NCBI RefSeq assembly: GCF_003946445.1 | Contig: NZ_RHOF01000003.1 | Location: 1-64,000, forward strand | DNA length: 64,000 nt | Source of the DNA: Loigolactobacillus jiayinensis | GTDB lineage: Bacteria > Bacillota > Bacilli > Lactobacillales > Lactobacillaceae | Reading direction: 5' to 3' | Shown: piece by piece, positions 1,930 through 42,385 of the stretch | Layout: each line of letters opens with the position of its first letter | Numbering within the stretch: the first letter of the stretch is position 1 | Made by a program: the position numbers and the translations under genes | Notes under the pieces: generated by a model | Told to the model about the DNA's origin: nothing | What the model saw: only the letters and a program-made list of their open reading frames with translations | The model's database searches: none

Positions 1930-4900
1930 CTACACATTCTCGCCGGTAGCAATGGCAAACGCCTTTTCCGCTAATTGTGCCTGCGGCGTGCCTTTGGCGG
2001 CTAAATCGGCCATAATTTCATTCATATGCCGGAAATCTTGCGGATAAACTTTGACGAAATGCTGCTTCTGATTAGTCCAGTCAGCTAAAATTGCTTTGGC
2101 TTTAGTTGATTCAGTATAGTACACGTGCTTCTCTAATAATTGTTTCAAAATATGATCATCGCCAGTTTCGCCTAAACGGAACAGTTCAACCATTTCCAAA
2201 TTGCAATTAGCAGCAAACTTGTTCGCGGGATCATAGACATAAGCAACCCCGCCAGACATCCCAGCACCAAAGTTGCGGCCAGTACTGCCCAGAACGACTA
2301 CTGTGCCGGAAGTCATGTACTCACAACCATGATCACCGATACCTTCAACGACGATATCAGCACCAGAATTACGGACACCAAAGCGTTCACCAGCACGGCC
2401 ATTGAAAAAGGCCTCGCCAGCAGTCGCACCAAAGCAAGCCACGTTACCAACAATCGGTGTTGTGCTATACAGCTTTTGTGCTTTAGCTGGTGCTTGAACG
2501 ATCAAACGACCACCACTTAGCCCTTTGCCGACATAATCGTTAGCCTCACCAATTAATTTTAGTTCCAATCCCTGCGTCATAAAGGCACCAAAGCTTTGAC
2601 CAGCAACACCAGTATATTGATAGCTGATCCGCCCCGCTGGCAACGTTTGATTACCAAAACGTGCAGCAATCCAGCCGCTCATACTACCGCCGACTGTCCG
2701 CATCACATTGTTGATTGGCGCACTAATTTCGGTTGGCTTAGTTTCTTGCAGCGCTTCTGTCGCAAAAGCATCTAATTCTGGCTGCTGTACTGGCGTCGCA
2801 AATGGATCATTCGACTTACGCTCAATGCCGATCGACGTGCTTAAAATTCGACTGAAGTCCAACGACTTAGCCTTACCTTTAGCAATAAACCGTGGCTTTA
2901 ACAATTCCGTATGACCAACCATTTCATCAACCGTCCGGTACCCTAAGGCCGCCATTTGTTCACGTAGATCCTGTGCTAAATAACGCATGCAATTCATCAC
3001 ATGTTCTGGCTTACCAGCAAAGAACTTACGGAGTGCTGGATTCTGCGTAGCAATCCCAGTTGGACAAGTATTCAGACTGCAGACACGCATCATAATACAG
3101 CCAATCGACGCCAGCGTTAACTGGGCAAAACTAAATTCTTCAGCACCTAGCATGATGGCAACCGCGATATCACGGCCAGTCATTAATTTACCATCGGTTT
3201 CTAAGGTCGCCCGTTGCCGTAATCGGTTTAACGCCAAGGTCTGATGAGCTTCAGATAAGCCCATTTCCCATGGTAAACCAGCATCCCGGACAGAGTTACG
3301 TGGTGCTGCGCCAGTCCCACCATCATAGCCGGAAATCACGACTTTATCAGCGCCTGCTTTAACGACGCCGGTGGCAATGGTACCGACACCAGTGCTAGCC
3401 ACTAATTTAACCGTCACTTTAGCATTGGGGTTAACTTGCTTCAAATCGAAAATCAACTGTTTTAGATCTTCAATCGAATAAATATCATGATGCGGTGGCG
3501 GTGAAATCAAACGTACACCAGGCACAGAACCACGAATGGCTGCGACCCAAGGGAAGTTCTTGATCCCCGGCAATTGGCCACCTTCACCAGGTTTAGCCCC
3601 CTGCGCCATTTTGATCTGAATTTCTTCGGCGCTCATCAAATATTCGGTATTAACGCCGAAACGTGCTGACGCCACCTGCTTAATTTTACTGTTTAAATTA
3701 CGGCCGTCAGCTTGGGGCTTAAAGCGATCACGAGCTTCGCCACCTTCACCAGAATTACTTTTAGCGCCTAGTGCGTTCATTGCTTCAGCAATCGTTTCGT
3801 GCGCTTCTTCGGACAAGGAGCCATAACTCATGGCGCCGGACTTGAAACGCTTAACGATAGCGCTAACTGGCTCAACCTCACTTAACGGTACCGCTGGCTT
3901 ATCAGAACTAATCGTCCATAACGAACGCAATGTCGTCGGGCTAGTTAATTCTTCATCACGCATTTCTTTGGCGTATTCCTTGTATAGCTCGTAGTTGCCG
4001 CCACGAACAGCTTGTTGGAACTTGTACAGCGTCATTGGGTTATACAAATGATGCTCACCTTCCGCACGGAACTTAAAGCTACCGCCAGATGGTAATGGAT
4101 CATGCGCTTTAGGCCCATAAGCGTGATCATAACGCGCTAAATATTCCTGTTCGATCTGTTCCAGCGACAAGCCGCCAATACGACTAGCCGTTCCGGTAAA
4201 GTAGCGTTCCACCACAGCAGAAGATAAACCAACTGCTTCAAATAATTGCGCACCCTGGTAACCAGCAATCGTCGAAATCCCCATCCGGCTCATGATCTTG
4301 ATAATGCCTTTTTCACAAGCCTGCCGGAAAGTTTCAACATGATCAGCTAAATCATATGCCCCTAAGGTAGCGTAAGCGCCATAAGGATGGATCGCCGACG
4401 CCCCATAACCAATCAAGGCCGCAAAATGATGCACCTCACAGGCTTCACCAGTATCAACAATGATCGACGCCTGGCCCCGCTTACCTTTGGCCACTAAATA
4501 ATTGTTTAAGCCAGCCACAGCCAATAGTACAGGAATAATTAATTTATCCTCAGTCGCGCCACGATCAGTTAAAATTAAAATTGTCGTTCCATTATCAATA
4601 GCAGCTTCTGCGGCCTGAAAGAGACTATCTAGTGCTTGTTCTAACCGATTTGGCCGTGCTTTTTTATCGTAGCACAATGACACTTCAGTCGATTTGAAAT
4701 CAGGCATGTCTAAGTGCCGAAGTCGTTCATAATCTGTAGAACTAAGCATCGGCGTCGCTAACTTAATTTTCTTAGCATTAGCAGCCGTGTCAGTGGTCAC
4801 ATCAGCGTCACGGCCAATAAATAGTTCAGTGCCAATTACTAATTTCTCTCGAATCGCATCAATTGGCGGATTGGTAACTTGCGCAAACTGTTGTTTAAAG

Positions 4901-8987: not shown

Positions 8988-9055
8988 CAAAAAAGCAGAT
9001 ACACCAAGCCAGCCCTCCTCACCCTAGAAGGGACTGTCTTGAAAGCATATCTGCT
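8988..9055 (-). terminator. Large hairpin terminator between the 294-residue gene and the antiporter gene
   Basis: Outer arms AGCAGATA/TATCTGCT enclose a second helix (CAAG.CAG.CCC with GGG.TG.CTTG) and are followed by six T on the minus strand. It is longer than a typical terminator, so it could also act as a leader element of the antiporter gene, whose SD lies about 35 bases downstream. Confidence 0.55.
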
Positions 9056-9072
9056 CCAACCGTCTAAACTAT

Positions 9073-29394: not shown

Positions 29395-29503
29395 GAGACT
29401 GCGACATAATTTTAGTTTTTTCTGAAGTTTGGCTGTACGCAACATTAGCACTACAGCCAGCTTTCAGGCAGAACCAGATCACTTATGCCACGGCCTTTTT
29501 TTA
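29395..29503 (+). terminator. Multi-tier terminator of the CNNM gene
   Basis: An inner helix GAAGTTTGGCTGT/ACAGCCAGCTTTC and an outer CATAA/TTATG plus AGACTG/CGGCCT helix are followed by seven T. The CATAA/TTATG arms resemble repeated terminators of lactobacilli. Confidence 0.6.
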
Positions 29504-39666: not shown

Positions 39667-40338
39667 TTGATTACAACAGATACGGGGTTGCGCCGGTTAA
39701 CGGCAATAGAAAGTCTGGCTTTTTTCGTTTTTTCAATTCTGTTAAATGCATTTGCTAATGCGCTAACTGTGGCCACAAATTTAGGGAGTGCCATTTGGAC
39801 CGCATCAGCAGCTAATTTGTCGTCGTACACGCACATTGGCTTAGGTGTCATTCTCTTTATTTATGGCTTTGCGGTTATTTTCATCAACGCCATTTTGATT
39901 CGTCAACTTAATTGGCGCCGGGTAGTCGGTAACCTGCTCTACATCTCGCCTTTTAGCTACTTAGTTCAACAATTTACTGCAGTTATGGAAAAAGCTGGCA
40001 TTATGTCGTTGAGCATGCCCACGCGGATCGTCCTTGATATTATCGGTGTGGTGCTGATTGGTGTGGCGGTATCAATTTATCAACGGGTCAATCTTATTCT
40101 GCATCCCAACGATGATCTCAGTTACATTTTGCGTTTCAACTTTTTCAATGGCAAAGCTGCCATCGCGCAATACGTTAGCTATATTCCACCAATTCTAGTT
40201 TTACTAGTTGCTTGGGCATTAAGTGGTAATTTGTTAGCGTTCAATGTTGGTACTGTTATTTCTTTGATTACGCAAGGCCCGGTCACCGGCTGGGCTGATC
40301 AACATATTTTCCACAAATTAAAGCATCGTTTGCACTAA
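39667..40338 (+). CDS. YczE/YyaS-type membrane protein
   Basis: 223 residues from a TTG at 39667, with AAGGGG upstream. Five to six hydrophobic segments. The segment NALTVATNLGSAIWTASA and the conserved NPDD-like HPNDDLSY near residue 155 fit the YczE/YyaS/YitT-related integral membrane family. Molecular function is not established for the family. Confidence 0.7.
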   Translation: MITTDTGLRRLTAIESLAFFVFSILLNAFANALTVATNLGSAIWTASAANLSSYTHIGLGVILFIYGFAVIFINAILIRQLNWRRVVGNLLYISPFSYLVQQFTAVMEKAGIMSLSMPTRIVLDIIGVVLIGVAVSIYQRVNLILHPNDDLSYILRFNFFNGKAAIAQYVSYIPPILVLLVAWALSGNLLAFNVGTVISLITQGPVTGWADQHIFHKLKHRLH

Positions 40339-40340
40339 AA

Positions 40341-40640
40341 AATGCCTGCCTATTATAAAATAGGTTCTTTCCGAAGCTGGGCTATCCTATTAACTCGTAG
40401 GCAGAGTTAGTTTAGTCCCATTCCGGCGCTGGCGTATGGAACGCGTGGCACGTTGGCAAGCTAATTTTCTTTCCAATTAAGCCCAATCGGAAAAGAAAAT
40501 GGATCTTGCCAGCCGCGCATGGTACTAGGCGACCACGGTCACCAAGTACCATCGACACAGCTGATAACGCCAGCGCCTCCATTCCACCTTTGGCAGCGTT
40601 TGAGCATTATTTCGTGAATTAGATTGAACGTTTAGGTGGC
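40341..40640 (+). repeat. Structured element, copy A, in the 3' region of the YczE-like gene
   Basis: A gene-free GC-rich stretch begins 3 bases after the stop codon. GGCGCTGGCGT (about 40425-40435) pairs with ACGCCAGCGCC (about 40567-40577) around nested helices: GGCAAG...CTTGCC with an inner TTTTCTTTCC/GGAAAAGAAAA, and TGGTACT...AGTACCA enclosing GACC/GGTC. It is homologous by eye to copy B on the other strand (40800-41083). Confidence 0.5.
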
Positions 40641-40701
40641 TCAATTAGGGTTAACCGGCAGTTATAGTGATTCGTAGTTTTAAAATAGGTTATATGCACA
40701 T

Positions 40702-40746
40702 AAAAACACCGATAAAACAGTTTTCTGCCTGTTTTATCGGTGTTTT
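40702..40746. terminator. Bidirectional terminator at the centre of the convergent region
   Basis: AAAACACCGATAAAACAG pairs with CTGTTTTATCGGTGTTTT over 18 bp. Copies A and B of the structured element read towards it from both sides. Confidence 0.85.
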
Positions 40747-40799
40747 GTATTCTGATTACCACTAACTTTGCCACTTAAACAAATCAACACTTGAACGTT

Positions 40800-41083
40800 C
40801 AACCGTTGACTGCTGAAATGGAGTCGCCTGCTTTTGTTTTTATTCAGGGAAAATTAGCTCGCCAACGCGCCACTGTCACTCGTTTTTAACAACTAAAGTT
40901 GAAAAGTATCAGGGACTTAGCACTTAACCGCCCAATAGAACGTGCTTCCCGTTGTCGATTGAACTATGGCAAAGATCGCCAAGTTCAAGTCGCACTCGTT
41001 CCGTCCACTGGCGACGTAATGGAAGCTAACTAGCTCAGCTGGCAGACAAAGTTCAGAAAGAACCTGCAGAATAGACGGGCATT
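40800..41083 (-). repeat. Structured element, copy B, in the 3' region of the GH28 gene
   Basis: On the minus strand it starts 7 bases after the GH28 stop with AATGCCCGTCTATT...AGGTTCTTTCTGAA, matching AATGCCTGCCTATT...AGGTTCTTTCCGAA of copy A. TAGTTAG..TCCATTACG..GG.ACGGAACG..TG and CGCGTTGGCGAGCTAATTTTC also match copy A. It is more diverged internally and lacks some of the helices. Confidence 0.45.
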
Positions 41084-41089
41084 TTTCAT

Positions 41090-42385
41090 TTACCGATTAT
41101 CAAATTCATCGTTCACCGCGTTATTCCCCTGCTGCACGTCAACGGTCACATGATCGAATTGTAAATTATCGATGGCTTCAATATGACCAAATTCCTTAGC
41201 GGCAATTTTAACATTACTGAAGGTTATATTGGCCATAGGTTTATCCGGAAAGGCCTTTAAATCAAAAGCGCGCGCCGGTAAACTGTAGTCTTTGGCCAAT
41301 GTAGCAGTAACGTTTTTGACCGTAATATTGCTAACTTTAGTCTTCTTCTGATTTTCTGGAATTTGTTCCGCAACTGCTAGCCAAAAATCAGGAATCTCTT
41401 TTTTGCCGTTAAGCACCTTGCGATTATATTCGTTATGCCAACTCATTAGCCATGAAAATGGGAACTGAACGTTATTCATAGTGAGATTTTCAACGCGAAT
41501 ATTGTCGACAAAACCACCCCGGTCCTGCGATGATTTCATGCGGAAACCGCAATCTGAGTTGTCAAAACTAATATCGTGAATGTAAACGTCACGGACGCCA
41601 GCAGAGACTTCACTGCCGATAACAACGCCGTAACCGGAGTAGATTTGGCAGTGATCGATTTCAATATGCTCGGAAATTTTATTGACGCGCAAGCCATCGC
41701 CATCGCGACCAGACTTGATCACAATACAATCGTCGCCACAAGCTAACTGACAATTATGCACGCGCACATTTGTTGAAGAGTCGATATCAATGCCGTCTGT
41801 GCTAGGACCATAATTTTGGCAAACACGGATGTTATGCACATCGACGTGATCAGAATAAGTGAGCTGTAGATTCCAAAAGCCAGAATACTGCAGTGTGACA
41901 TCACTAACGGCAATTTGTTGTGACTTGTAAACAAGGATTTCCCGTGGTCGTTTGATTTCATAGTCAGCAATCCAGCGGAGGTCATGTTCGTCGTACCATT
42001 TGCGTTTGCCGCTTTTTTTGTCTTCACCCCAATAAAGGTTCCACCAATGCGGACCTTGCCCATCAATAATACCAGGACCAGATATTTTCACGTCGTGACA
42101 TTCCAGTACGTTAAGGATTGCAGCAGGCCATTTCATTTCTACACCGGCCACCCGTGCGTCGATTTCTGGGTAGTCAGCAATGTCTTTACTCCCTAATAAT
42201 TGGGCACCAGATTTAAATTCCAACTGCAGCTCACTTTTCATAAAGATTGAGCCAACCAGATAAATGCCGGCCGGTAAAACAATTTTGTCACCAGCGGTCG
42301 CGGCATCAATTGTTTTTTGAATTGCAATCGTATCAAGAGTAACGCCATCGCCGACCGCACCATGATCTTTAATATTAAGTTCCAT
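41090..42385 (-). CDS. GH28 family glycosidase (polygalacturonase/rhamnogalacturonidase-like), intracellular
   Basis: 431 residues, SD AGGAG. A right-handed beta-helix of family 28 with VGDGVTLDTIAIQ near the N-terminus, GDD at 217-219 and RMKS at 282-285. The first motif reads STDG (usually NTDG) and the third reads GYG at 251-253 where polygalacturonases have GHG. There is no signal peptide, so it should act on imported oligosaccharides. Last gene of the rha unit; exact bond specificity unknown. Confidence 0.85.
   Translation of the reverse strand: MELNIKDHGAVGDGVTLDTIAIQKTIDAATAGDKIVLPAGIYLVGSIFMKSELQLEFKSGAQLLGSKDIADYPEIDARVAGVEMKWPAAILNVLECHDVKISGPGIIDGQGPHWWNLYWGEDKKSGKRKWYDEHDLRWIADYEIKRPREILVYKSQQIAVSDVTLQYSGFWNLQLTYSDHVDVHNIRVCQNYGPSTDGIDIDSSTNVRVHNCQLACGDDCIVIKSGRDGDGLRVNKISEHIEIDHCQIYSGYGVVIGSEVSAGVRDVYIHDISFDNSDCGFRMKSSQDRGGFVDNIRVENLTMNNVQFPFSWLMSWHNEYNRKVLNGKKEIPDFWLAVAEQIPENQKKTKVSNITVKNVTATLAKDYSLPARAFDLKAFPDKPMANITFSNVKIAAKEFGHIEAIDNLQFDHVTVDVQQGNNAVNDEFDNR

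Follow-up and report, generated by a model that had tools for sequence, protein, structure and literature searches.

A small gene-less, very probably mobile element inside a probable terminator hairpin in Loigolactobacillus jiayinensis

The window analysed here, a 64,000-nucleotide stretch of the Loigolactobacillus jiayinensis genome, contains a mirror-image sequence between two convergent genes. This sequence is a small gene-less element, very probably a mobile one, which lies within a terminator hairpin and brings a hairpin of its own; modular copies of it number in the dozens in this group of lactic acid bacteria. We term it E0. Its ends, targets and internal organisation suggest that E0 is probably a non-autonomous, ISL3-type, terminator-targeting element with a BOX-like modular build.

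Extent of the element and its copies

The gap at 40341-41083 had been described in an earlier sequence-only reading, whose coordinates and quoted motifs were found to be correct on re-reading the sequence. The left neighbour gene has its stop at 40338 and the convergent right neighbour ends at 41090. The latter is a GH28 gene (PF00295), as had been proposed, whereas the name 'YczE-like' given to the former is not backed by any Pfam match. The description of the gap as free of open reading frames holds from 60 aa upwards, but a list starting at 50 aa shows two, of 56 and 51 aa. A repeat search returned inverted pairs at 40338-40354/41070-41086 (17 nt, 88%), 40362-40375/41052-41065 (14 nt, 93%), 40445-40469/40849-40873 (25 nt, 92%) and, centrally, 40703-40720/40729-40746 (18 nt, 100%).

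The two halves of the gap, arms A and B, resemble each other beyond chance. With the terminator halves and the central palindrome left out, local alignment of arm A with the reverse complement of arm B scored 21, a value reached by none of 500 dinucleotide shuffles (10.3 +/- 1.3, maximum 15). When the 124-nt M cassette (see below) was cut from B, the score was 32 (shuffles 9.9 +/- 1.3, maximum 16) and the alignment extended from the gene ends to GCTAATTTTC. That two intergenic halves look alike by accident is a practically negligible explanation: the shuffles, the other genomic copies and the covarying hairpins all speak against it, and no supporting point was left after testing. Two parts of the earlier description had to be recast. 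The outermost match, AAAAATGCC.G.CTATT, most plausibly represents the terminator stem belonging to the host genes rather than part of the repeat. Moreover, instead of being separate copies that meet at a shared terminator, A and B are the arms of a single transposon-like element with nested modules.

The entire element spans 40363-41064 (702 bp, no strand assigned), its ends having been placed by a terminal-repeat profile, and is bounded by the inverted ends GGTTCTTTC..GAAAGAACC. The left terminal repeat region (40363-40424, + strand; GGTTCTTTCCGAAGCTGGG...CCCATTCC) closes with 8 bp (40417-40424) that form the first direct repeat around module E1A. The right end region (40995-41064, - strand) holds the remainder of module E1B and the right terminal repeat, GGTTCTTTCTGAACTTTGTCTG on the - strand. 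In the end profiles, the left and right consensus have their first 23 nt, GGTTCTTTCTGAAGTTTGGCTGT, in common. These profiles were derived from copies chosen beforehand by a typed end sequence, and part of the similarity between the ends therefore arises by selection.

E0 is a dispersed repeat family in Loigolactobacillus. Arm A has 34 matches in its own genome and arm B has 70. The middle region (40578-40828, no strand assigned), which includes the central hairpin, served as the copy-search query; among the best 25 candidates per genome it was found in at least 13 places in its own genome and in 25 or more in that of a sister species (G003), where end motifs outside these core places indicate further copies. 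Two of the 8 genus genomes thus carry it, and it was not detected in the other 29 genomes searched. The window itself contains a second, minimal copy of 62 bp (29414-29475, + strand), consisting of the two ends only and lying inside a GACTGCGACATAA-type hairpin; its rejoined site folds with z -4.3, and its duplication scored 0/8 by the scripted rule, with none clear. The idea of a dispersed structured repeat is supported: copies are many, helices covary and the alignment lies far above shuffles; neither a lack of further copies, nor a lack of covariation, nor shuffle-level similarity was observed.

Several traits are those of a miniature inverted-repeat transposable element (MITE). There is no transposase gene, the longest open reading frame in 40363-41064 being 56 aa (list from 50 aa); terminal inverted repeats are present, as seen in profiles from preselected copies; copies are dispersed at differing sites; and there is a target site duplication of 8 bp, though it is unclear in the window copy. 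We class E0 as MITE-like and new in detail, and as a candidate member of the ISL3 family. An orthologous empty site for the window copy was not obtained: in G003, the closest relative of the left gene is separated from the edge of an E0 copy by several hundred bases.

Insertion sites

E0 appears to split the stem of a host intrinsic terminator, the left arm of which lies at 40338-40354 (AAAAATGCCTGCCTATT, + strand) and pairs with the right arm at 41070-41086 (AATAGACGGGCATTTTT, + strand). When rejoined, the two arms fold at -24.8 kcal/mol (z -4.5). The flanks outside E0 differ between copies, and many pair mutually to give hairpins with A/T tracts when rejoined. In one copy (L012), for instance, the element interrupts the host hairpin GTGTGACCAGCAAA/TTTGCTGGTCACAC and is flanked on each side by CTCTAAAT; the corresponding sequences are AATTTTAC in L018 and AAATAAAA in L009.

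Both ends could be placed in 26 of 38 copies (10 of 13 in the own genome, 16 of 25 in G003) and the other 12 were dropped. The best 8-mer identity between left and right flanks averaged 5.42 for own pairs and 3.76 for foreign pairs, one base of slack per side being allowed equally to both, and 0 of 20000 permutations gave this result (n=26). Seven or eight of the 8 bases matched in 9 of 26 sites (8 of 26 without slack), while fewer than seven matched in the remaining 17, including the window copy with 5/8. Such duplications mark insertion.

E0 prefers terminator-like hairpins. The complementarity of own left and right flanks was equalled by only 7 of 20000 permutations, in a test made conservative by the recurrence of a GACTGCGACATAA hairpin, copies of which form several of the targets. 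By eye, the element sits in a hairpin loop in 14 of 26 sites, in the A/T tract of an intact hairpin in 3 and at no clear terminator in 9. Rejoined sites fell below z -3 in 12 of 26 cases (14 lay above; mean z -3.09), compared with 3 of 52 nearby controls (mean -0.62; Fisher p 5e-5). These controls were positions 120-380 nt away and included genic DNA, as did the random flank positions used for ISL3 elements below; part of the fold excess may therefore only mirror a preference for gene 3' ends, the controls not being confined to intergenic DNA. By a simple ORF rule, the flanking genes are convergent at 16 sites, tandem at 10 and divergent at none (n=26). Terminators represent a safe landing place at which genes are left unbroken.

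The copies of the own genome and those of G003 fit separate insertions. Between the 10 own and 16 G003 placed copies, only one pair (L018/L051) has a neighbouring gene in common, and relative to that gene the element is oppositely oriented in the two genomes. On the other side of this pair, the shared gene is adjacent in L051 and about 1.5 kb off in L018. The remaining cross-matches are short copies of the recurring hairpin or, for the window, a related gene away from the element edge.

Central hairpin, modules and cassettes

At the centre of E0 lies a perfect 18-bp hairpin (40703-40746, no strand assigned). In an alignment of 34 sequences, 96.8% of its cells are paired and double-sided changes affect 7 pairs and 40 cells, compared with 4.8 and 11.0 in shuffles and at most 2 and 3 in slid structures; 'further pair types' show no excess (14 vs 15.9 in shuffles). 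It had been put forward as an 18-bp bidirectional terminator. The perfect, covarying stem upholds the structural part of this proposal, but the stem is closed by only 4 T and a consensus terminator scan of 40250-41200 made zero calls; the hairpin is therefore presumed to terminate transcription both ways. The covariation anticipated for the proposed helices was found here and in the X cassette described below.

Each arm carries a module closed by a G+C-rich helix. E1A (40425-40577, + strand) has the closing helix GGCGCTGGCGT (40425-40435)/ACGCCAGCGCC (40567-40577) around its cassettes and is followed by the second 8-bp direct repeat at 40578-40585. The nested helices that the sequence-only reading had drawn for copy A, closed by this same pair, are borne out by folding (MFE -74.1, z -6.7, 0 of 200 shuffles as low). 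E1B (40823-41015, - strand), a partly deleted E1A homologue in the right arm, lies between GAAATGGA (40815-40822) and GTAATGGA (41016-41023) and is closed by GTCGCCAGTGG/CCACTGGCGAC. In the window this module carries one M insert and its fold is unremarkable (z -0.87); fuller forms occur in L012 and L017, and a module-free form in L014. The direct repeats around the modules read TCCATTCC and, in B, GGAATGGA, and are identical at 7 of 8 positions in the window.

Some arms have a single repeat and no module (L018 left, L014 right, L206 right). In another arm (L134), just GGCGCC stands between both 8-bp repeats, resembling a footprint of module loss. Because of the module-free arms and this remnant, it is possible that E1 is an independent transposon with 8-bp direct repeats and the closing helix as its ends; deletion between short direct repeats would give the same picture. 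Matches to E1A occur in 5 of the 8 genus genomes; in three species they stand at 81-87% although the E0 middle is not found there at E 1e-4. In loci of L. backii, L. iwatensis and L. binensis (L191-L210), the E1 and X modules are kept, while the middle and, by eye, the outer ends differ.

The X cassette (40448-40562, + strand) is a structured domain of three helices in two stem-loops. Across 67 sequences, 97.9% of the cells in its 31 pairs are paired. Double-sided changes were observed in 15 pairs (shuffles 11.5; slid structures no more than 5) and in 245 cells (shuffles 83; slid structures no more than 45), a covariation that largely separates A-type from B-type lineages and so reflects fewer independent events than cells. 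As with the central hairpin, 'further pair types' show no excess (27 vs 28.5 in shuffles).

The M cassette (40871-40994, - strand; CGACTTG...GACAGTG on the - strand) is missing at the same place in L011 and L012 and is present in triple tandem in L009. Within modules, the cassette orders X, M-X, X-M, M-X-M, M, M-M and three tandem M were observed, X being roughly 115-120 nt long and M roughly 123 nt (124 nt in the window). M mostly follows TG and ends in AGTG, with the exceptions of L010 and a lone copy at L017:1664-1783. It is present in 6 of 8 genus genomes and in 0 of 33 others searched; the named genomes with its motif are those of L. zhaoyuanensis, L. backii, L. binensis and L. iwatensis. 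In the own genome, M also occurs in at least two other repeat contexts (L023-L026, L028-L030), followed in one by TCTTATGGC-CACGTTT and in another by CTTTTTCAACCACGTTT. Single motif matches in two unrelated MAGs (L102, L115) were taken as chance on inspection, and the exact motif had 0 matches in viral contigs. A plasmid search returned solely M-like matches of 122 nt in 6 records (E 0.06), and an M profile confirmed the two that were examined (L130 and L131). In these, from L. backii and Levilactobacillus brevis plasmids, the M-like element (3003-3116) lies just upstream of a CinA-family gene. An assignment of M to the IS200/IS605 type was considered and rejected: the Y1 transposase domain PF01797 has 0 matches in the own draft genome at E 0.001, and 2 of 8 genus genomes match.

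The proposed ISL3 link, rival explanations and related systems

We sought a transposase that might mobilise E0. The ISL3-family transposase domain PF01610 occurs in each of the 8 genus genomes, with many fragmentary matches. Near-complete genus copies (in G004) have the ends GGCTCTTTGTCAAATCC (GGCTCTTTGTCAAA..) and GGTTCTATAC. By hand count, the E0 end GGTTCTTTCTGAA agrees with the ISL3 end GGCTCTTTGTCAAA at 10 of 13 terminal bases, no ISL3 copy being identical, and E0 shares the 8-bp duplication of the ISL3 family. Perfect 8-bp ISL3 duplications were observed at a terminator loop (TATAAATA, L183), inside a terminator hairpin (GATTTTAC, L174) and at a terminator T tract (ACCATTTT, L164); the other G004 copies have no matching flank pair. 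Across Lactobacillaceae ISL3 loci, ends and duplication were recovered in 17 of 61, the other 44 having no such pair. Rejoined sites lay below z -3 in 8 of these 17 and above it in 9, compared with 1 of 34 random flank sites below; when L183, L174 and L164 are set aside, 5 of 14 remain below -3. ISL3 elements thus favour terminators without requiring them, a preference at most.

No ISL3 gene with the exact ends of E0 (GGTTCTTTCTGAAGTTTGGCTG) was found; the own assembly consists of 127 contigs, and multi-copy insertion sequences may be missing from it. The own genome holds two PF01610 fragments of one gene, with ends unlike those of E0 (L076, L034, G000:C116). That gene is split by a transposase-like gene with HTH_38 and rve domains, which we take to be IS30-like. 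From the likeness of ends, duplications and targets, we infer that an ISL3 transposase moves E0.

Other families, such as IS256, IS66 and IS1595, also make 8-bp duplications. E0 could accordingly be the same kind of mobile element moved by one of these, its ISL3-like ends and targets being convergent; a matching ISL3 element was not found, and the module relatives in other species have other outer ends (by eye), so that vehicles may change. The resemblance of the E0 ends, and of part of its targets, to resident ISL3 elements makes this account unlikely. In a further alternative, E0 would be a functional 3'UTR or small structured RNA (an sRNA, a decoy or a protein-binding RNA) under selection, with X and the 23-nt GGCGCTGGCGTATGGAACGCGTG as active parts and copy number as a by-product. 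The sequence-only reading had named a 3'UTR RNA element as one option beside a dispersed repeat; the latter was upheld, while an RNA function is neither shown nor required by the data. Such a function would suit the pairing of X (97.9% of cells, 15 doubly changed pairs in 67 sequences) and the 81-87% retention of E1A in three species where the E0 middle is not found at E 1e-4. It sits poorly with cassettes that vary in presence and order, with arms that lack the module altogether, with flanking duplications that mark insertion, and with the single own/G003 pair beside the same gene (L018/L051), which is in opposite orientation and has a different gene on its other side. Furthermore, Rfam searches gave no family for E0 at gathering scores in the window, and nothing near one in a lax search of the region. 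We consider an RNA under selection very unlikely to be the explanation. Elsewhere in the window, at 9013-9061 on the - strand, the Rfam Na+ riboswitch (RF03071, DUF1646) scores above its gathering score.

Under the preferred reading of E0 as a terminator-targeting mobile element, a non-autonomous, MITE-like E0 would be inserted in trans by an ISL3-type DDE transposase. The target would be the loop of a bidirectional intrinsic terminator between two convergent genes, and about 8 bp on that loop would be duplicated. The central palindromic hairpin would presumably then take over bidirectional termination, and with this replacement insertion would be nearly neutral, so that E0 could accumulate at gene 3' ends. 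The arms are long imperfect terminal repeats, each with an E1 module closed by its G+C-rich helix, inside which X and M occur in variable numbers and arrangements, much like boxB in BOX elements. A bolder version is possible, if doubtful: the ISL3-type system may recognise the terminator hairpin itself, whether extruded, single-stranded or transcribed, and cut 8 bp centred on the loop, E0 being a MITE adapted to this by a replacement bidirectional terminator and by shuffling structured cassettes, of which M is common to other repeat contexts and to plasmids of another genus.

If true, a loop-aimed element that supplies a hairpin of its own would account for the harmless accumulation of repeats at gene 3' ends. 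It would also provide a natural example of insertion that is guided by structure yet uses staggered cuts, whereas blunt cuts are reported for IS1272, and the targeting of ISL3 elements would become testable. The shuffled cassettes with their covariation illustrate how modular repeats of the BOX-like kind can assemble.

In Enterococcus faecium, the available text of one report describes an rRNA terminator that was interrupted near its midpoint by an insertion, which duplicated 8 bp and had an ISL3 element at one of its ends (PMC11702846). In the text available of a MITE review, ISL3 does not occur (PMC10969869), and neither there nor in the corresponding text of a large survey of insertion sequences is ISL3 terminator targeting described (PMC10969869, PMC9208149). 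Among literature titles and abstract openings, mostly from outside subscription journals, none announces ISL3 insertion into terminator loops or the E0 repeat. This silence is weak evidence for novelty.

E0 resembles the ISL3 family in ends that begin GG(T/C)TCT, in 8-bp duplications and in the terminator targets of several ISL3 copies; it differs in being gene-less, in having ends equal to those of no ISL3 copy examined and in its structured cassettes. IS1272/TnSha1, of the IS1182 family, targets hairpins, several of them shown to be terminators, and like E0 does so without a primary sequence consensus, according to the accessible part of its description (PMC4923244). The same part describes IS1272 as cutting blunt in the stem, deleting part of the hairpin and making no duplication (PMC4923244), whereas in the case of E0 both hairpin arms are retained and the loop region gains a duplication of about 8 bp. 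REP-targeting insertion sequences also aim at dispersed palindromes, as stated in the available text of PMC1525189; the targets of E0, unlike REP sequences, are terminator-like hairpins, several of the recurring GACTGCGACATAA type.

The nearest kind of element is represented by BOX, RUP and SPRITE of Streptococcus pneumoniae, which are short intergenic modular repeats like E0, as portrayed in the sections available of PMC3049150. According to these sections, BOX (boxA-boxB-boxC) is built from modules, the middle box varying in copy number, BOX and RUP have terminal repeats and duplications, all three insert into one another, and SPRITE is terminator-like and enriched at gene 3' ends (PMC3049150). 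Compared by description rather than by sequence alignment, E0 differs from BOX in lying inside host terminator hairpins with an 8-bp duplication. It also belongs to another genus and, unlike BOX, is two-armed, with a closing helix and cassettes in each arm and a palindrome at its centre.
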